Below are positions 20,841-32,037 of a stretch of 41,181 bases of DNA, in pieces; within the stretch, counting starts at the first letter, position 1; each line of letters starts with the position of its first letter. The position numbers and the translations under genes were made by a program. Under the pieces are notes generated by a model. It saw only the letters and a list, made by a program, of their open reading frames with translations. It had not been told where the DNA came from and made no database searches. This stretch comes from Candidatus Eiseniibacteriota bacterium (lineage in GTDB: Bacteria > Eisenbacteria > RBG-16-71-46 > CAIMUX01 > WJJG01): NCBI GenBank assembly GCA_030601305.1, contig JAUVTV010000003.1, positions 1 to 41,181 on the forward strand, in the 5' to 3' direction.

Positions 20841-21632
20841 CTAGTAGCGCCCCTTGCTCCGGGGATCGCTCTCGGCGGACCAGGCTCCGCGACCGCCCGA
20901 CGCAGCGGCCCCGGACACGGACGCGGTCTCCAGCTCGGGAGCCTGCGGCGCCATGGCCCGCGCCTCCAGCACCGCGTCACTGACGAAGCGCGCGTACGTC
21001 TTGATCGCGCGAACCGCGTCGTCGTTGCCGGGAATCGGGTGGGTCACATCATCGGGGTCCGCATTGGTGTCCACGATGCCGACCGCCGGGATGCCCAGGC
21101 GCATGGACTCGCGCACCGCGATCTGCTCCTTCCTCGTGTCGATGATGAAGATCAGACCGGGGAGACGGTGCATGTCCTTGATACCCGAGAACGTGTTCTC
21201 GAGCTTGGCGCGCGCCTTGTTCTTGCGCGAGGCTTCCTTCTTGGACAGCTTCGCCAGGGTCCCGTCTTCCTCCATCCGCTCGAGATTGTGCAGGTAGCGA
21301 ATGCTCTGACGAATGGTTTGGAAGTTGGTCAGCATCCCGCCCAGCCAGCGCTCGGTCACGTAGAACATGCCGCAACGCTTGGCCTCTTCGACCATCACGC
21401 CCTTGGCCTGCTTCTTCGTGGCCACGAAGAGCACCGTACCGCCCCCGCCCACGATCCGTCGGATCGCTTCCCGAGCCGCCTCGAGCGCCTCCATGGTCTT
21501 CTCGAGGTCGATGATGTAGATGCCGTTGCGCTCCATGAAGATGAAGGGCTTCATCTTCGGATTCCACCGGCGGGTCTGGTGGCCAAAGTGGACGCCGGCA
21601 TCCAGCAGGTCCTTGATGGTGGTGTTCTGCAT
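20841..21632 (-). CDS. rpsB: 30S ribosomal protein S2
   Basis: Small-subunit protein S2, 263 residues. 'LLDAGVHFGHQTRRWNPKMKPFIF', 'GTVLFVATKKQA', 'ERWLGGMLTNFQTIRQSI', 'LPGLIFIIDTRKEQIAVRE' and 'GIPAVGIVDTNADPDDVTHPIPGNDDAVRAI' regions are all standard. After residue ~235 the tail is low complexity (SGAAASGGRGAWSAES). ATG at 21632 has GGAGG five bases upstream; an in-frame extension to 21665 lacks similarity. It follows rpsI by 144 bases with a foldable leader. Confidence 0.98.
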   Translation of the reverse strand: MQNTTIKDLLDAGVHFGHQTRRWNPKMKPFIFMERNGIYIIDLEKTMEALEAAREAIRRIVGGGGTVLFVATKKQAKGVMVEEAKRCGMFYVTERWLGGMLTNFQTIRQSIRYLHNLERMEEDGTLAKLSKKEASRKNKARAKLENTFSGIKDMHRLPGLIFIIDTRKEQIAVRESMRLGIPAVGIVDTNADPDDVTHPIPGNDDAVRAIKTYARFVSDAVLEARAMAPQAPELETASVSGAAASGGRGAWSAESDPRSKGRY

Positions 21633-21658
21633 GGGGTCCTCCCGCGTTGGAAGTTTGG

Positions 21659-21717
21659 CCTCCACCCCCGACTCTTCCCCGTGGGGAAAAGAACTCCCAT
21701 ATGGAGGTGTGCGTATT
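21659..21717 (-). promoter_or_regulatory. Foldable leader upstream of rpsB
   Basis: On the minus strand an outer stem CCTCCA/TGGAGG (21717-21712 with 21664-21659) encloses a stronger inner hairpin TTCCCC-ac-GGGGAA (21688-21683 with 21680-21675). It ends about 25 bases before the rpsB start. Leaders of rpsB are sites of S2 autoregulation in other bacteria; the link here is inferred from position and folding only. Confidence 0.3.
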
Positions 21718-21776: not shown

Positions 21777-22166
21777 CTAACGCTTCGAGAACTGGAACCG
21801 CTTGCGAGCGCCGGGCTGCCCGTACTTCTTGCGCTCCTTCATGCGCGAGTCACGCGTGAGAAGCCCATCGCGGCTCAGGGCGGCCTTGGTTTCGGGATCC
21901 GCGATCTTGAGCGCGCGGGCCAGGCCGAGGCTCAAGGCGCCGGCTTGTCCGGTGAGGCCGCCACCGCTCACGTTGGCCCAAACGTCGTACTTCCCCACGG
22001 TCTCGGTAACTTGCAGGGGTCGCACGGCGATGCGCCGAATGGTCTCGCGGGGGAAATAATCCTCGAACGTTCGGCCGTTGATCTGCAGGGTCCCGGCCCC
22101 GGGGCGGATGCGCACACGGGCGACAGAGCTCTTGCGTCGTCCGGTCGAGGCGGTCTGCGTCTCCAT
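21777..22166 (-). CDS. rpsI: 30S ribosomal protein S9
   Basis: 129 residues, normal size. '[16 protein letters not shown]' at the start, '[13 protein letters not shown]', '[21 protein letters not shown]' and the basic tail '[24 protein letters not shown]' ending in the conserved KR that reaches the P-site tRNA. It starts two bases after the rplM stop; GAGGAGG at the end of rplM serves as ribosome site. Confidence 0.98.
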
Positions 22167-22168
22167 GT

Positions 22169-22681
22169 CTATGCCTCCTCAGATGCCGCCGGCGGCGGCG
22201 CTGCCCCAGTCTCCGCTTGGGGATCCTGCCCGGGGAAACCCTTACCGTGAAGTCCGAGCTTGTAAGGGATCGGCTGCTGCGCCTCATGAGGATGATCCGC
22301 GTCCGCATAGACCTTCAGCTTGCGGATCATCTGGCGCCCCAAACGCGTGTGGGGAATCATCCCCCACACCGCATCGCGGATCACCTCCCCGGGATGTTTC
22401 TCCATGCGGTCCCGCAACGGGATGTGGCGTTCGCTACCGACGTAGCCGCTGTGGCGGAAGTACGTCTTCTTCCAAAGCTTCTTGCCGGTGGTGCGAACCT
22501 TGGAAGCGTTCACGACGACCACGTGGTCCCCGGTATCGAGATGGGCACAAGTGTACGCTTTCCACTTCCCCTTCAGGAGAGCCGCCACCTCGCTCGCCAT
22601 CCGGCCCAGCACCTGCCCTTCGGCATCGACCAGGTACCAACGGCGCACGATTTCGCTCGCTTTTGTCGTATACGTATCCAT
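22169..22681 (-). CDS. rplM: 50S ribosomal protein L13
   Basis: 170 residues. '[27 protein letters not shown]', '[19 protein letters not shown]', 'RHSGYVGS' and '[22 protein letters not shown]' are the L13 marks. After residue ~145 comes an Ala/Pro/Glu-rich tail ([15 protein letters not shown]) that is longer than usual. First gene behind the promoter at 22728-22756, so it heads the long ribosomal and envelope operon. ATG at 22681 follows AAGGGG at a spacing of seven. Confidence 0.98.
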
Positions 22682-22727
22682 GCAGGAACCCCTTCTGGTC
22701 ATTCCCGAGACAATTGGCAAAGTGCAG

Positions 22728-22756
22728 AGTCTACTCTTCCGCCCGATCGCTGTCAA
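22728..22756 (-). promoter_or_regulatory. Strong sigma70-type promoter of the rplM operon
   Basis: On the minus strand: perfect TTGACA (22756-22751), exactly 17 bases, then TAGACT (22733-22728). Transcription would start near 22721, giving a leader of about 40 bases before rplM. This is the best promoter in the long minus-strand gene series and probably drives rplM through gatB. Confidence 0.75.
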
Positions 22757-22782
22757 GGTCCCCAAGAACGTCTCTGGGGACC
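22757..22782 (-). terminator. 8-bp inverted repeat abutting the rplM promoter
   Basis: GGTCCCCA-10-TGGGGACC, perfect arms, ending exactly at the -35 hexamer; TT follows on the minus strand. It could terminate the preceding dtd-maf transcript, act as an operator, or both. The 81-base stretch 22757-22837 holds nothing else clear. Confidence 0.45.
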
Positions 22783-22837
22783 CCGAGGAGGGGGGCGCGC
22801 CACCTCGCATGGCCATCGGCGCGCCGAGGCGACATCC

Positions 22838-23920
22838 TTATCGAGCCGTCGATTCCGCGGCTAGCAGGAGGGCCCGCAACCGCGCGAGCGGCAAGCCCAT
22901 CACATTGAAATAGCAGCCGGAGATGCCGGCGACCAGCATGCCGCCGATGCCCTGGATGCCGTAGGCCCCGGCCTTGTCGAGCGGCTCCCCGGTCCTCACG
23001 TACGCCTGGAGGCTCTCCTCGTCCAACGCCGACATGCGCACCCGCGAGAGCTCGTGGCCCGAGACCAGCCGCTTCCCGCCGGCGCCGGCGAGACACAGGC
23101 CGGTGATGACCTCGTGTTCGCGGCCCGTAAGGCGCCGCAAGTGCGAGAGCGCCTCCTCGGGCCCGGACGGCTTCTCCAGCACCTCGCCCTCCAGGACGAC
23201 GACCGTGTCGGCCCCCAGGATCAAGCCGCGCCTTTCCTTGCGGGCGACAGAGAGGGCCTTCGTCTCCGCCTGACGCTCCACGTAACGAGCTGGATCCTCG
23301 CCCGGCTGCCGGCCGCAGCCGTCCTCGTCCGGCACGCGCGTCTCGAAGCGAACCCCCAGCATCTCGAGAAGGCGTGCCCGCCGGGGCGAACGCGAGGCGA
23401 GAAGCAGGGGACCGCGCCGGAGGCCCAGGAGCGTCTCGACCTGCTGCGGCTTGCCGCTGTGGCTCTTGCGTCCCTTCCACTCCCGCGAATCGATCAGCAG
23501 GGTCACCGGCCCGTCGTTGACGCTGTCCACCTCCATCTTCGCCTGGAAGACCCCGGTCGCCACGCGGTGGGGCGCGCGCCGCAGCTCCGCAACGAAGTGC
23601 TCATAGAGGCGGTCGGCTTCGCCGGGATCGGCCGCCTTGCTCCAGCTCGGGCGGCGCCCCTTGATGCAGTCCCCGAGAAGCGTGAACTGCGAGACCACGA
23701 GGAGTTCCCCGCCGACGTCGCCCAGCGATCGGTTCATGCGCCCCTCATCGTCGCTGAAGATACGCAAGCTGAGGCACTTGCGTGCTAGCCACTCGGCCTC
23801 CACGTCCATGTCGCCCCGCGCGACGCCGAGGAGGATCAGCAGCCCGCGGCCGATGCGCGCCGGCTCCCTTCCGGCAATGCGCACCTCGGCGCGCTGGACG
23901 CGTTGAACGACAGCCATCAT
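22838..23920 (-). CDS. Fused D-aminoacyl-tRNA deacylase and Maf-type nucleotide pyrophosphatase
   Basis: One 360-residue frame with two enzymes. Residues 1-145 are Dtd, which removes D-amino acids from tRNA: 'VVQRVQRAEV', the 'SQFTLL' motif at 77-82 and 'NDGPVT' at 135-140, both forming the chiral-proofreading site. After a ~25-residue basic linker, residues 171-360 are Maf, a pyrophosphatase acting on (modified) NTPs: 'LLASRSPRRARLLEMLG', 'AETKA', 'LGADTVVVLEGEVLEKP', 'HEVITGLCL' and 'DKAGAYGIQG'. Both halves seem complete, with no frameshift. ATG at 23920 lies 20 bases after the barrel gene; AAAGG is a weak ribosome site. Both parts are house-cleaning enzymes, so the joining makes functional sense. 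Confidence 0.92.
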   Translation of the reverse strand: MMAVVQRVQRAEVRIAGREPARIGRGLLILLGVARGDMDVEAEWLARKCLSLRIFSDDEGRMNRSLGDVGGELLVVSQFTLLGDCIKGRRPSWSKAADPGEADRLYEHFVAELRRAPHRVATGVFQAKMEVDSVNDGPVTLLIDSREWKGRKSHSGKPQQVETLLGLRRGPLLLASRSPRRARLLEMLGVRFETRVPDEDGCGRQPGEDPARYVERQAETKALSVARKERRGLILGADTVVVLEGEVLEKPSGPEEALSHLRRLTGREHEVITGLCLAGAGGKRLVSGHELSRVRMSALDEESLQAYVRTGEPLDKAGAYGIQGIGGMLVAGISGCYFNVMGLPLARLRALLLAAESTAR

Positions 23921-23940: not shown

Positions 23941-24636
23941 TCAGAGGTCGATGGATCCGCCCAGGTAGACCGAGTTGTGATTCAGGGCCCGGTCCTCGAA
24001 CGTGCGCATCACGCGACCCTCGATGAAGAAGGAAAGCGGCGCCTTCGGCACGCGGAGCTTGGCCCCCCCGACCACGTGCCACCCCGCCTCGCTGCTCTCC
24101 CCGGCCACGTCCTCGATAGCCTTCTCGAGATCCCCGGGATCAATCTGTGCTGCAGGTGTCGAGCGCCTGCCCGCCGGCGTCCCCTCGCCGTTCACGATAC
24201 GGGCTTCCTTGATCTCCGTCCTGATGAAATGGACGTTGAGCCCACCCCCCACGTAGAAGCTGAGCGGGAAGGCGGGAAGCGCAAACAGCTTCAGCTTCCC
24301 CGTGAGGTAGAAGGTCAGGTCCTCGTAGTCCCCGGTACCTGCGGCCTTGAACGTATCGATGATGCCCTCGGAGAACTCGAACTCCTGCGTGACGTACTCC
24401 CCCGCGGCCTCGATTTCGAAGATCGGCGTGCCGGCACCCAGGTGGATCCCGATCAGATCGGTCCCCCCCAGCTTGCCGGCATCCTCGAGAACCTCCGTGT
24501 CCACCTCGGCCCAGCCGATCCGCAGACCGACATCCGCACCCGCCCGCGCGGCGGTCGGCGCCGCCGTCAGGGCCATCAGCGCGAGGCCCCCCCGCAGAGC
24601 GAAACCCATGACGCTCTTGACGAGCATCCTGCTCAT
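23941..24636 (-). CDS. Predicted outer-membrane beta-barrel protein
   Basis: 231 residues. A clear signal peptide ('LVKSVMGFALRGGLALMALTAAPTAARA', cut before GADVG) and then alternating hydrophobic/polar strands rich in Gly and aromatic residues: 'VGLRIGWAEV', 'LIGIHLGAGTPIFEIEAAGEYV', 'LSFYVGGGLNVHFI', 'WHVVGGAKLRVP', 'LSFFIEGRVMR', ending 'VYLGGSIDL'. This is the pattern of an eight-stranded porin-like or OmpW/OmpA-like barrel; no specific family is recognised. ATG at 24636 has GGAGG five bases upstream; a TTG at 24651 is less likely. Located between rel and dtd-maf, 30 bases after rel. Confidence 0.7.
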   Translation of the reverse strand: MSRMLVKSVMGFALRGGLALMALTAAPTAARAGADVGLRIGWAEVDTEVLEDAGKLGGTDLIGIHLGAGTPIFEIEAAGEYVTQEFEFSEGIIDTFKAAGTGDYEDLTFYLTGKLKLFALPAFPLSFYVGGGLNVHFIRTEIKEARIVNGEGTPAGRRSTPAAQIDPGDLEKAIEDVAGESSEAGWHVVGGAKLRVPKAPLSFFIEGRVMRTFEDRALNHNSVYLGGSIDL

Positions 24637-24666
24637 CCGCACCTCCCTCAAGCCGCGTCTTGCGCC

Positions 24667-26886
24667 TCACTTCCGATCGGCTTCGGGGTCAACCAGCGTG
24701 CCGCTGCGTTCCACGGACGACACCCCCCGCACCTTGCGGAGGGCCTCCATCACGCGGCCCAGATGCGCCACGTTCTTCAGCTCCAGGACGAAGTCGCCGC
24801 GCGCCTCACCGTCACCCACCGAGGACATGGCGCCGTGACGCATCTCGGTCCCGAGACGCGAAATCGCCGAGGCGACATCGACGAGCAGATTGGTGCGATC
24901 GTAGCCGGTGACGATCAGGCGCACCAGGAAGCGCTGGTCGCGCTCGACGTCCCATTCGACCTCGATGCGGCGTTCGGGCTCGATGCGATCCGAAAACGTG
25001 TTCGGGCAGTCGACGCGGTGGACCGAGATGCCGCGTCCGCGGGTGATGATGCCGATCACCTTCTCGCCGGGGATCGGCTGACAGCACTGCGCGACGCGAA
25101 TGAGCAGGCTGTCGACGCCGCCGATGTGCAGCCCCTTGACCGGGCGGCGCGCCAGGCGGCGGATCCGGTCGAGCGCCGAGCCGGCGCGGCCCTCTTTCTC
25201 CCGCTTGCGCTCCTCCGGATAGAGCCGCTCGACGACGCTCTGCGCCGAGAGATCCCCCTGTCCCACCTTGGCGTAGAGCAGCGGCACGTCGGGCAGGCCG
25301 AAGCTCTGCGAGATGTCCTCGAGCTCCTTGTCGGAAGGAACCTTCAGGCGCCGGCGTTTCAGCTCACGGACCAGCATCTCGCGGCCCAGCCGCACGGAGA
25401 CGTCCTGGCGCTGCTGCGTGAGCCAGCGGCGGATCTTCGCCTTCGCGCGACTGCTGGCGACGATCTTGAGCCAGTCCTCACTGGGCTGGCCGTGGGGTGA
25501 GGTCACGATCTCGACGACCTCGCCGCTCTTCAGATGGTACCGCAGCGGAACGATCTTCCCGTTGACCTTGGCGCCGACGCAACGGGCACCGACATCGCTG
25601 TGAATCGCGTAGGCGAAGTCGATCGGCGTCGCCCCGCGCGGCAGGCGGATCAACCCGCCTCGCGGTGTAAAGACGAACACCTCGTCCTGGTAGAGCGATG
25701 TGCGCAAGTAGTCCATGAACTCGCCGGGATCGTCGGCGTCATTGCGCCACTCCGTGGCGCCCTGGACGATGAAATCGCCGAGCTTGTCTTGGATCTCGGT
25801 CTCCGGGGTCCGCTGGCCCTCCTTGTAGCTGTAGTGCGCGGCGATGCCGATCTCCGCGACGCGGTGCATCTCGTGCGTGCGGATCTGGACCTCGACCATA
25901 CGCATCTCTTCGGGGATCGTGACCGTGGTGTGCAGCGACTGATACATGTTGCTCTTCGGCGTCGCGATGTAGTCGCGCAGACGATCGGCGACCGGCGTGA
26001 ACATGTCGTGGATGACGCCCAGAACACGATAGCAGTCGTCGCGCGATTCGGTCAGCACGCGCACGCCGAGCAAGTCGTAGATCTCCTCGAACGGCGCCCC
26101 GAGGCGCTGCATCTTCTGCCAGATGCTGAGCAGGTGTTTGGCGCGGCCGGTGACCTCGGCCGGAATGCCTTCCCGGCCGAGACGCTCGCGCAGCGGCACC
26201 ATGGCCTCGGTGATGGCCTCCTCCCGGGCCCCGCGTTTCTCGGCGATGTCCTTGACAACCGTGCGGAAGTTCTCCGGTTCGATGTACTTGAACGCGAGGT
26301 CCTCTAGCTCCCACTTGAAGCGCGCGATCCCGAGGCGATGCGCGATCGGCGCGTAGATGTCGCGCGTCTCCTTGGCGATGCGCAACCGGCGTTCCTTCTC
26401 GAGGGCGCCCAGCGTGCGCATGTTGTGAAGCCGATCGGCGAGCTTGATCAGGATGACGCGGATGTCGCGCGCCATCGAGAGAAGCATCTTGCGATAGTTC
26501 TCGGACTGGGCGATCTCGGGCGTGCGGAAGGGCAGATCGCTGATCTTGGTCACGCCGTCGACAAGCGCGGCCACCTCGGGCCCAAAGCGCTTTTCCAGAT
26601 CGTCGACCGTCACGTCGCGGTTGTCCTCGACCGTGTCGTGGAGCAGGGCCGCGGCCAGGATGGTGAGATCCGATCGGCGGCGGAGGAGGTCGAGCAGGAT
26701 GCGGGTGACCCGCACGGGGTGGAGCACGTACAGCTCTCCGGTGCGCCGGAGCTGGCCGGCGTGCGCTTGGGACGCGGTTTCGTAAGCCTCCCGCAAGACG
26801 CTCAGATCGACATCCGGCCAGTAGCTGAGCAGCTCGGCCAGAATGCCTTCGAAGAGCACGTCGATCTTCTGCGTCTCCGCTCCCAC
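24667..26886 (-). CDS. rel: Bifunctional (p)ppGpp synthetase/hydrolase, RelA/SpoT family
   Basis: Stringent-response enzyme, 739 residues from GTG at 26886. The hydrolase HD motif is present ('LLHDTVED', residues 82-88) together with 'KLADRLHNMRT', so ppGpp hydrolysis should be active. In the synthetase, 'GRAKHLLSIWQKM' and 'YIATPKSNMYQSLHTTV' are present, and the regulatory loop reads RLRD, a basic RxKD-like form rather than the acidic ExDD of monofunctional RelA. TGS domain at ~385-445 ('VFVFTPRGGLIRLPRGATPIDFAYAIHSDVG' region) and a C-terminal zinc-finger and ACT domain ('AQCCQPIPG', 'DRTNLLVDVASAIS'). It starts four bases after the foldase stop. Confidence 0.95.
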   Translation of the reverse strand: MGAETQKIDVLFEGILAELLSYWPDVDLSVLREAYETASQAHAGQLRRTGELYVLHPVRVTRILLDLLRRRSDLTILAAALLHDTVEDNRDVTVDDLEKRFGPEVAALVDGVTKISDLPFRTPEIAQSENYRKMLLSMARDIRVILIKLADRLHNMRTLGALEKERRLRIAKETRDIYAPIAHRLGIARFKWELEDLAFKYIEPENFRTVVKDIAEKRGAREEAITEAMVPLRERLGREGIPAEVTGRAKHLLSIWQKMQRLGAPFEEIYDLLGVRVLTESRDDCYRVLGVIHDMFTPVADRLRDYIATPKSNMYQSLHTTVTIPEEMRMVEVQIRTHEMHRVAEIGIAAHYSYKEGQRTPETEIQDKLGDFIVQGATEWRNDADDPGEFMDYLRTSLYQDEVFVFTPRGGLIRLPRGATPIDFAYAIHSDVGARCVGAKVNGKIVPLRYHLKSGEVVEIVTSPHGQPSEDWLKIVASSRAKAKIRRWLTQQRQDVSVRLGREMLVRELKRRRLKVPSDKELEDISQSFGLPDVPLLYAKVGQGDLSAQSVVERLYPEERKREKEGRAGSALDRIRRLARRPVKGLHIGGVDSLLIRVAQCCQPIPGEKVIGIITRGRGISVHRVDCPNTFSDRIEPERRIEVEWDVERDQRFLVRLIVTGYDRTNLLVDVASAISRLGTEMRHGAMSSVGDGEARGDFVLELKNVAHLGRVMEALRKVRGVSSVERSGTLVDPEADRK

Positions 26887-26890
26887 GGAC

Positions 26891-27907
26891 TTACGTCCCC
26901 TCGCCGACGCGCAGCTCGATCTGCGCGCGCATGCGCAGCTCGCCCGCCAACGCATCCACGGCCGCCTGCACCCTCTCGCGGACGACCATGCCGCGAACCC
27001 ATTCCCTCGCCCGCGCGTCGAGCTCGTACACCTCCCCCCCGTGGCGCTCGGTCACCGTGACGATATGGAACCCGTACTGCGTTTGGAACACCTCCCTGAT
27101 CTCACCAACCTCGAGAGCGAAGGCCACATCCGAGAGCGGCTTGACCCAAAAGCCGCGGCGCGCGGCGCCGAGATCGCCCCCCGCGCTCGCCGTCCGGCAA
27201 TCCGAAACCTCGCGGGCCAGCTCCGCGAAGTCCTCGCCGGCGCGGGCGCGAGACAGCCAGGCCTCCGCTCGCTGTCTCGCCGCCGCCAGGCTCTCGGGCA
27301 GCGCGCTGCGCGACGTGGCCACCAGGATGTGGCTCGCGCGCACGCGCGTGGTGTCGAACGATTCGGGATGGGCCGCGTAGTAGGCGCCGATCTGTTCGTC
27401 GCTGACGGTGATCGTGTCGCGGATCTCCGCGGTGACGAAGCGCTGCACGAGCTCATCCATGAGCAGGCTGCCCTGCACCCTCTCGGGGGTCAGGTGGCCC
27501 GCGGCCAGCTTGGCTTCGCGGTCCTCTCGGCCGGCGAAGTTCGATTCCCACGCCGCGATGATCGCATCCGAGACGCTGTCGGGCACCGTGATGCCGCGGC
27601 GGCGCGCCTCCCGACTGAGAAGGTGCTGGTCGATGATCTGATCGAGGGCCTTCAGCTGGAGTTCCTTCGTCGTCGCCGCCACCTCACCCTTGGCCGCGCC
27701 GGACTGGACCCAGTAGCGCGAGACCAGATCCAGCTCCGCAAGGAGGATTTCTTCGCCCTCGACGACCGCCACGACCGCCCCGGGATCCCCGACGATCTCA
27801 CTACCCGTATCGTGAAAGGTGCCGCCCTCCCGTTCCCCGCCACAGGACAGCAAGGCGAGGAGCAGTCCCAGCGATGCGCACCTCCATGCGTGCCAGCCTC
27901 TGAGCAT
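26891..27907 (-). CDS. Parvulin-type peptidyl-prolyl isomerase lipoprotein (SurA/PrsA-like)
   Basis: 338 residues. A lipoprotein signal peptide with lipobox 'LLSC' (Cys22) indicates anchoring to a membrane facing the periplasm. Residues ~45-185 form a SurA N-like helical chaperone domain; residues ~190-288 are the parvulin domain: 'RASHILVAT', 'FAELAREVSDC', 'GGDLGAARRGFWVKPLSDVAFAL', 'FQTQYGFHIVTV'. It is predicted to help fold exported or outer-membrane proteins, in line with the TamA/TamB genes downstream. ATG at 27907 follows AGGAGG by seven bases. First gene of the ppiC-rel-barrel-dtd/maf group. Confidence 0.9.
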   Translation of the reverse strand: MLRGWHAWRCASLGLLLALLSCGGEREGGTFHDTGSEIVGDPGAVVAVVEGEEILLAELDLVSRYWVQSGAAKGEVAATTKELQLKALDQIIDQHLLSREARRRGITVPDSVSDAIIAAWESNFAGREDREAKLAAGHLTPERVQGSLLMDELVQRFVTAEIRDTITVSDEQIGAYYAAHPESFDTTRVRASHILVATSRSALPESLAAARQRAEAWLSRARAGEDFAELAREVSDCRTASAGGDLGAARRGFWVKPLSDVAFALEVGEIREVFQTQYGFHIVTVTERHGGEVYELDARAREWVRGMVVRERVQAAVDALAGELRMRAQIELRVGEGT

Positions 27908-30915: not shown

Positions 30916-32037
30916 CTAGGCGTACCGGAAGATCGGCGCGCCCGGCGCGACTCGAATCGCCCGCGCCACATGCTCATCTTTGACGACTGCCGCGCGAAAC
31001 ACGGGACAGCGGAAACGCGTGGTCCAGTTCGTCTCGACACCGCGCCCCTGCCCCACGAACAGGATCCAGCGAGCCCCGGCTCCCGCCGCGTCCAGCTCCT
31101 CCCCGACGTGGCGCAGGTCGATGCCCGGTGAGCCGGTGCCGCTGCCGACGAGCGCGACCCTCCCGGCGCGTAGCGCGGGTTCCAGCGGACTCCCCGGGAA
31201 CGCTGCCAGCACCGCCAGGTGCGCCCCCGCCTCGTCGAGCGTCACGTCGCTCGATGCGGGAAGCGAATTGACCACCACGATCACCTCCCACCGGGATGCC
31301 CAGTAGAGCGCGGCGGGGATGACGCCGAGCAGGAAGTCGGGGCCCGCGTTGTCCGCGAAGACGAGTACGCGACCCTCCGCCTTCTCACCCAGCCGGCGGT
31401 ACGCCGGCCGAAGCAGCGCGCGCGCATCCCCTCCCAGGCGAGCGAGCAGTGCCTCCGCCGGGGCGCGGAAGCGTGTCGCCGCCGCACCGATGTCCAGCTC
31501 GCCGCGGCGAAAGGCCTCTTGCGTGGCACGCGAGCCGAGGTCGAAGAGGTTCCCGGCCAGCATCGACGCCAGGATCCCGGTCAACGCACCTTCGTCATCC
31601 TTCGTGCCCATCTCCCACGCGGCGCAGCACGCGGTATGCGCGGGTCTTAGCAAGTCCTGCGCCAAACGCGCCTTGATTCCCTGATACGGATCGTACAGCC
31701 CGTGCCCCCGCAGGAGCGCCTCCCGGATCTGCGTGATCTCGTGAACCGTGCGCACCTCGCGGGCGGCATCGCCTTCTTCGAGTTCGCGGAAAAGCTCTCC
31801 CAGGATTTGGATGACCCGCTCGCAGCCGTCCCGCTGTTCGCGGCTGCCCTCGGCCGCAACGATCTCGCGAACATACCGCGCGTTTGCGCGCAGGATGGCA
31901 ACCCAATGGCGGATCATCTCGGGTTCCCGGGCGAGATCCCACAGACCCGGCAAGGGCGGGAAGCGCTCCACCAGACCGAAGGGCACGCCCTCCGGCGGGG
32001 GAATCCACGCTCTCCACTCCGCGGTTGTGTGCGTCAT
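30916..32037 (-). CDS. DUF89/ARMT1-like metal-dependent phosphatase
   Basis: 373 residues. The DUF89 marks are in the C-terminal half: 'VLVFADNAGPDFLLGVIPAALY' (usual DNAGE, metal ligands), 'VVVNSLPASSDVT' (usual N..P..nDvT), 'GSGTGSPGIDL' and 'AAVVKDEHVAR'. Family members are damage-control phosphatases acting on sugar phosphates or phosphorylated cofactor by-products; substrate unknown here. An N-terminal helical domain (1-190) has 'GLYDPYQGIKARLAQDLL'. The usual DNAGE has GPD here. ATG at 32037 has only a weak GGTGGG site. Divergent from the next gene, convergent with the PDZ gene. Confidence 0.75.
   Translation of the reverse strand: MTHTTAEWRAWIPPPEGVPFGLVERFPPLPGLWDLAREPEMIRHWVAILRANARYVREIVAAEGSREQRDGCERVIQILGELFRELEEGDAAREVRTVHEITQIREALLRGHGLYDPYQGIKARLAQDLLRPAHTACCAAWEMGTKDDEGALTGILASMLAGNLFDLGSRATQEAFRRGELDIGAAATRFRAPAEALLARLGGDARALLRPAYRRLGEKAEGRVLVFADNAGPDFLLGVIPAALYWASRWEVIVVVNSLPASSDVTLDEAGAHLAVLAAFPGSPLEPALRAGRVALVGSGTGSPGIDLRHVGEELDAAGAGARWILFVGQGRGVETNWTTRFRCPVFRAAVVKDEHVARAIRVAPGAPIFRYA

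Follow-up and report, generated by a model that had tools for sequence, protein, structure and literature searches.

The window analysed here, a 41,181-nucleotide stretch of a Candidatus Eiseniibacteriota genome (assembly GCA_030601305.1, contig JAUVTV010000003.1, positions 1 to 41,181), carries a single gene in which a D-aminoacyl-tRNA deacylase (Dtd) is joined in frame to a Maf nucleotide pyrophosphatase. We regard with good confidence the reading that the gene is a genuine fusion belonging to one Candidatus Eisenbacteria family, that its product is most likely a bifunctional enzyme with a dimeric Dtd half, and that it arose from an overlapping dtd-maf gene pair through a frame-changing indel. 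The fusion is a small step from the overlapping-neighbour state, and represents a clean natural case of the passage from overlapping gene pair to fusion protein, which has taken place twice.

The reading frame runs on the minus strand from an ATG at position 23920 to a stop codon at 22838-22840 and encodes 360 residues without an internal stop (Table 1). The Dtd half scores 182.8 bits against Pfam Tyr_Deacylase (PF02580, cut-off 25) and 161.1 bits against NCBIfam TIGR00256 (cut-off 101.5) and is matched along the whole family length; the Maf half scores 189.1 bits against Pfam Maf (PF02545, cut-off 27) and 175.1 bits against TIGR00172 (cut-off 117.15) and is matched along nearly the whole family length. 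The sequence-only reading had announced a complete Dtd and a complete Maf in one frame and had proposed a search for PF02580 and PF02545 in one protein: the coordinates are exact, the curated profile cut-offs are passed by both halves, and all four motifs that it had named (SQFTLL, NDGPVT, GADTVV and SRSPRR) are present in the window protein. Both the SQFTL and the NXGP(V/F)T motif are found in each of the six fused proteins described below.

Table 1. Coordinates of the fused gene, its parts and its neighbours in the window.
Feature	Position	Strand	Evidence or remark
Fused dtd-maf gene	22838..23920	-	Single open frame, 360 aa; both profiles above cut-off
Dtd half, residues 1-145	23486..23920	-	TIGR00256 at 1-145, PF02580 at 3-144; structural Z 24.9 to 2dbo, 24.5 to 1jke
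SQFTL motif, residues 77-81 (SQFTLL, 77-82)	23678..23692	-	Sequence; motif as defined in PMC3845328
NDGPVT, residues 135-140 (NXGP(V/F)T, Gly-cisPro motif)	23501..23518	-	Sequence; motif as defined in PMC3845328
Linker, residues 146-170	23411..23485	-	Length and sequence vary among fused proteins; pLDDT about 56 in 151-160
Maf half, residues 171-352, YhdE-type (R180, T239, Q323)	22865..23410	-	TIGR00172 at 171-352, PF02545 at 172-352; Z 26.5 to YhdE 4p0e
SRSPRR loop, residues 176-181 (S178, R180, R181)	23378..23395	-	Sequence, alignment
GADTVV, residues 236-241 (D238, T239)	23198..23215	-	Sequence, alignment
Displaced Maf Glu site, residues 200-201	23318..23323	-	Asp-Gly in fused family members; corresponding region of L114-L117, L121 and f10 loci
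relA/spoT, upstream, same direction	24667..26955	-	Pfam HD_4, RelA_SpoT, TGS, ACT_4
Probable outer-membrane beta-barrel protein, between relA and dtd	23941..24651	-	OMP_b-brl, E 0.00015, under the Pfam cut-off
rplM (L13), downstream	22169..22816	-	PF00572; L13 domain from residue 58, true start probably further in
rpsI (S9), downstream	21777..22166	-	PF00380
rpsB (S2), downstream	20841..21665	-	PF00318

The predicted fold agrees with this domain organization. An AlphaFold2 model built from 72 aligned sequences (the alignment took 71 of 123 computed reference sequences) has a mean pLDDT of 92.8 and features two confident domains on either side of the weak linker; its pTM of 0.62 is too low to fix how the halves are arranged, and their packing was left out of consideration. 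In a structural comparison covering the chains ranked by Foldseek, the Dtd half is close to bacterial Dtd, and the Maf half superposes on YhdE (4p0e) with an rmsd of 1.6 over 187 aligned residues. According to PMC3845328, the SQFTL and NXGP(V/F)T motifs build one DTD active site across two subunits, so the fused protein should need dimerization through its Dtd half; Maf proteins are described as forming dimers too (PMC3899018). Judging from family membership, the Dtd half most likely dimerizes and would hydrolyse D-aminoacyl-tRNA and Gly-tRNA-Ala, the latter a reported Dtd substrate (PMC5409826), the Maf half would cleave dTTP, UTP and modified pyrimidine triphosphates as a pyrophosphatase of the YhdE type, and both are probably active.

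The two genes had been described as normally separate, which holds for the relatives of the window but misses that across these phyla they adjoin, often with a 4-base overlap. Both genes are present in 45 of 47 Eisenbacteria genomes, fused in 6 and separate neighbours in the same order and direction in 39, and the unfused pairs lie within about 110 bases of each other except in G033, where an unreadable stretch falls in the Maf start region; in the remainder, neither gene was found in G030, and G031 has Maf only, at a contig end. In the phylum of G047 and G048, mostly labelled Krumholzibacteriota, 72 of 80 genomes have both genes: 67 as neighbours, 2 with a gap of about 3 kb and 3 with the genes split between contigs. 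Of the 61 genomes in the phylum of G134, Gemmatimonadota-labelled and including a Glassbacteria record, 53 have both, side by side in 46 and separated by 0.3-1.6 kb on one strand in the other 7. The phylum of G049 (Fermentibacter; Fermentibacterota) has 35 such genomes among 40; the genes adjoin in 34 of them and lie on different contigs in one. No fusion was found among these 72, 53 and 35 genomes with both genes. For the four phyla combined, the genes are adjacent in 186 of the 205 genomes that have both and fused in 6 more, as opposed to 0 of 55 adjacent in a Bacteroidota sample (the phylum of G052; both genes in 55 of 61). These adjacency counts were read by eye from tables, and the survey comprises the four linked phyla and the Bacteroidota sample, with Pseudomonadota, Bacillota, KSB1 and other phyla represented by at most single genomes. 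Five genomes (G049, L162; G077, L163; G096, L164; G142; G191) hold near-fusions, with dtd and maf in one frame and a single stop between them. In G016, two Dtd-encoding stretches lie on different contigs, C14 and C98 (L129, L161).

The junctions of the unfused pairs point to the likely origin of the fusion. Among 36 scorable Eisenbacteria pairs, 20 share 4 bases between the dtd stop and a maf start and 3 share a single base; in the remaining 13 the overlap is longer or a short gap separates the genes (-20 to +37 bases, measured at the start codon nearest the overlap arrangement). The 4-base overlap is found in five of the six unfused pairs from the window's own order and in 24 of the 33 unfused loci with both genes among the best 80 of 392 relatives in a species scan (two of these loci, L011 and L053, are also in the phylum set, as G006 and G017). 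Since the unfused genes adjoin, most often with 4 bases shared at the junction, the fusion appears to be a covalent form of a translationally coupled pair. The ancestor would have had adjacent, often overlapping and translationally coupled dtd and maf genes, and, as the gene arrangement suggests, a frame-changing indel in the overlap would have removed the dtd stop. Such an indel suffices for fusion, and the linker would then be the leftover Dtd tail followed by the old Maf leader. Covalent joining would fix a 1:1 dosage that was presumably set earlier by the overlapping start and stop, and may carry whatever benefit tethering brings.

The fusion stands in six genomes in all, the window's included. 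All five genomes of the window's family f1 (G000, G007-G010) carry it in an unbroken frame, and the sixth, G013, belongs to another Eisenbacteria family (f6); identity to the window protein is 64-72% in the other four family members and 50% in G013. The species scan, which covered one genome per species with six peptide patterns of the window protein and which distant fusions could escape, returned, among the best 80 of 392 relatives, five Candidatus Eisenbacteria records besides the window's with this fusion (L004-L008), which are the five other fused genomes already counted here. In a tree built from the Dtd and Maf domains joined end to end (66 rows, taken from 23 of the 80 species-scan loci, the phylum genomes and three others), the five f1 fusions form one clade (100/97) and G013 groups with its unfused f6 relatives (100/99). 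A single origin, with all six fused proteins in one clade, is rejected at p-AU 1.9e-7, a value to be taken as indicative, the group having been named after the fusion distribution was seen. The deep branches of the tree are weak. On this tree, the fusion arose at least twice, once in f1 and separately in G013. Domain shuffling from elsewhere is not needed and was set aside: the joined domains of the fused family, taken together in this tree, group with those of unfused genomes of the same order (100/97), and the neighbourhood is kept. The suggested use of the fusion as a lineage marker is borne out by the five of five family genomes, but its independent recurrence in G013 would mislead if the fusion were used alone.

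Codon comparisons of the window gene with each of the four other family members give dN 0.15-0.24 and dS 0.87-2.06 for Dtd, dN 0.22-0.33 and dS 0.81-1.24 for Maf, and dN 0.5-1.5 on 22-25 codons for the linker, with dS partly saturated and the dN/dS figures accordingly rough. By these codon comparisons, amino-acid change is held down in the Dtd and Maf domains and not in the linker. Cut for a comparison of all six proteins, the window linker has 27 residues and a net charge of +5; within the window's family the length runs from 27 to 47 residues, and in G013 it is 52, with the frame kept throughout. The description of a basic linker of about 25 residues thus fits the window, but the basic character is not conserved among the fused proteins (net charge -3 in G008 and +1 in G013), and on these charges we rejected the basic linker as a functional element. 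No in-frame ATG, GTG or TTG falls within residues 141-176 of the window gene, leaving no usual Maf start codon there; in the five other fused genes the linker always includes one or more such codons. A separate Maf could be made in those five genomes, as these codons suggest, and our confidence in the reading of a bifunctional enzyme derived from the overlapping pair is slightly lower because of these possible starts.

Downstream of the fused gene, the window continues with rplM, rpsI, rpsB, tsf, a UMP-kinase-like gene and frr. Upstream and on the same strand as dtd, relA/spoT is present in all 35 Eisenbacteria loci whose upstream sequence exceeds 1.5 kb. Among the best 80 of 392 relatives in the species scan, 33 loci have enough upstream sequence and 22 of these carry it; the 11 loci without it are labelled Gemmatimonadota/Gemmatimonadales, Fermentibacteraceae/Sabulitectum, Glassbacteria and KSB1. 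The association of dtd with maf therefore extends further than that with relA. In the window, in the 10 f1-f4 loci retrieved (L114-L123) and in G015 (L128), the gene between relA and dtd is a weakly recognised outer-membrane barrel. About 7 kb from the fused gene, on the same strand, positions 30916-32037 of the window encode an ARMT1-like damage-control phosphatase domain, a predicted house-cleaning enzyme.

What the joining means for the two activities admits several readings. It stands at close to an even chance, if somewhat under it, that the fusion is neutral, the two genes being merely expression-coupled neighbours for which loss of the stop was tolerated and whose activities have no biochemical link. 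The linker is long, variable and free of visible constraint, the halves match stand-alone enzymes, and fused genes are infrequent (in 6 of the 205 genomes that hold both genes, over the four phyla with the linked pair), all of which agrees with neutrality; against it, the fusion occurred on two separate occasions, and dtd and maf remain neighbours in four phyla even though the relA gene beside them is not always kept, which suggests selection on the pair itself. The coupling of dtd and maf may indeed be expression-level or neutral, and if the link is only of that kind, the gene is a domain fusion of the ordinary kind that can serve to mark the family.

A functional module, in which Dtd and a YhdE-type Maf cooperate and the fusion reveals, in Rosetta-stone fashion, a complex of unfused relatives, we hold to be possible but distinctly less probable. 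As one example of such a module, the two enzymes would, during RelA activity, remove mischarged tRNA and the modified pyrimidine NTPs released by stable-RNA turnover. The contrast between adjacency in the four phyla and its absence from the Bacteroidota sample speaks for a module, as does the relA gene upstream in every Eisenbacteria locus with enough sequence. PMC10666635 reports that very short-distance gene pairs are enriched for heteromeric complexes (30.4% vs 6.8% in E. coli), so that a Dtd-Maf complex is a reasonable hypothesis for the unfused relatives; by the same figures, 69.6% of the short-distance E. coli pairs form no complex. A complex, a co-regulation or a joint phenotype of Dtd and Maf was not found, and the open-access literature searched, by title and abstract start, gave no link between the two and no paper on a Dtd-Maf fusion or a conserved dtd-maf pair. 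The widest form of the idea is more tentative still: a long-standing physical and functional proofreading module of Dtd and YhdE-type Maf in Eisenbacteria, Krumholzibacteriota, Gemmatimonadota and Fermentibacterota, translated through a stop-start overlap, partly located behind relA and twice fused into a bifunctional enzyme. If true, it would constitute an unrecognised link between translation homochirality and the cleaning of pyrimidine-nucleotide pools. The coupled quality control that the sequence-only reading had suggested for the two activities is plausible, being consistent with the conserved linkage and the two fusions. Two house-cleaning enzymes usually studied apart are now tied together, and a Dtd-Maf complex in whole phyla becomes a testable hypothesis.

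The catalytic residues of the Maf half bear on a further reading. PMC3899018 gives S-R-E-K-D-K as the Maf signature residues and distinguishes a YhdE subfamily with R-T-Q, acting on dTTP, UTP, CTP and modified pyrimidines, from a YceF subfamily with W-Q-E, acting on m7GTP. The fused Maf carries R-T-Q (R180, T239, Q323) in all five family members and in G013, and not the W (or aromatic)-Q-E of YceF, and it retains S178, R181, K221, D238 and K250 of the signature. At the site of the signature Glu (the metal ligand E33 of YhdE), all five family members have Gly, with an Asp one place earlier, an arrangement compatible in the alignment with a one-residue shift of the acid or with its loss, and one that counts against the bifunctional reading. 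Asp followed by Pro stands at this site in G004, the nearest unfused relative, and Asp followed by Arg in 14 of the 15 readable f10 rows; because these unfused proteins are displaced as well, the displacement is not tied to the fusion. A separate second Maf is present in 9 of the 11 genomes of the window's order (L165-L172 and, in the window genome, G000:C136, L173) and was not found in G003 and G007, and the same search reported none in the other families of the phylum; the residues in all nine copies read are Y/F-Q-E, which is YceF-like. That the Maf half is catalytically weak or repurposed, for instance as a nucleotide sensor tuning Dtd, with its metal-binding Glu displaced, is in our judgement unlikely. 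The Gly at the usual Glu position and the low activity reported for the YhdE E33A mutant (PMC3899018) would fit such a loss of function, but the other signature residues and R-T-Q are all kept, the Asp one place earlier is constant, the Maf half is under purifying constraint, and the unfused Maf of G017 likewise has an acid one place earlier.

Finally, an assembly or sequencing artefact, that is a missed stop or frameshift between two genes, has practically no chance of being right and was rejected: the window does come from a 69% complete metagenome-assembled genome, and G035 of the same phylum has a broken maf reading frame, but the same fusion stands in frame in all five family genomes and in G013, in separately named assembly records, and codons are constrained on both sides of the junction. 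Two loci that could be taken for fused, L144 (G033) and L146 (G035), were rejected as such, having only a partial Maf match and differing frames, and were left out of the junction scoring; the Maf start region of L144 contains a run of N.

Overall, each half of the protein belongs to a known family, and a Maf fused to another enzyme is already known from human ASMTL. The Dtd half shares with DTD/Dtd (PF02580, TIGR00256; E. coli 1jke) the full-length profile match, both motifs and the fold, and differs from the matched PDB chains, single-domain by their length of 144-168 residues, in carrying a second enzyme at its C-terminus. The Maf half resembles YhdE-subfamily Maf (PF02545, TIGR00172; 4p0e, 1ex2) in its full-length match, S-R-K-D-K and R-T-Q residues and fold, and differs in its fusion behind Dtd and in the Gly that replaces the signature Glu, with Asp one place earlier. 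As described in PMC3899018, ASMTL likewise joins a YhdE-like Maf covalently to a second domain, but there Maf is N-terminal and its partner a predicted methyltransferase domain, whereas in the window Maf is C-terminal and its partner is Dtd. Closest to the fusion is the adjacent dtd-maf pair of Eisenbacteria, Krumholzibacteriota, Gemmatimonadota and Fermentibacterota, which has the same domains in the same order and orientation and makes two proteins, from separate frames or with a stop between them, where the window gene makes one.
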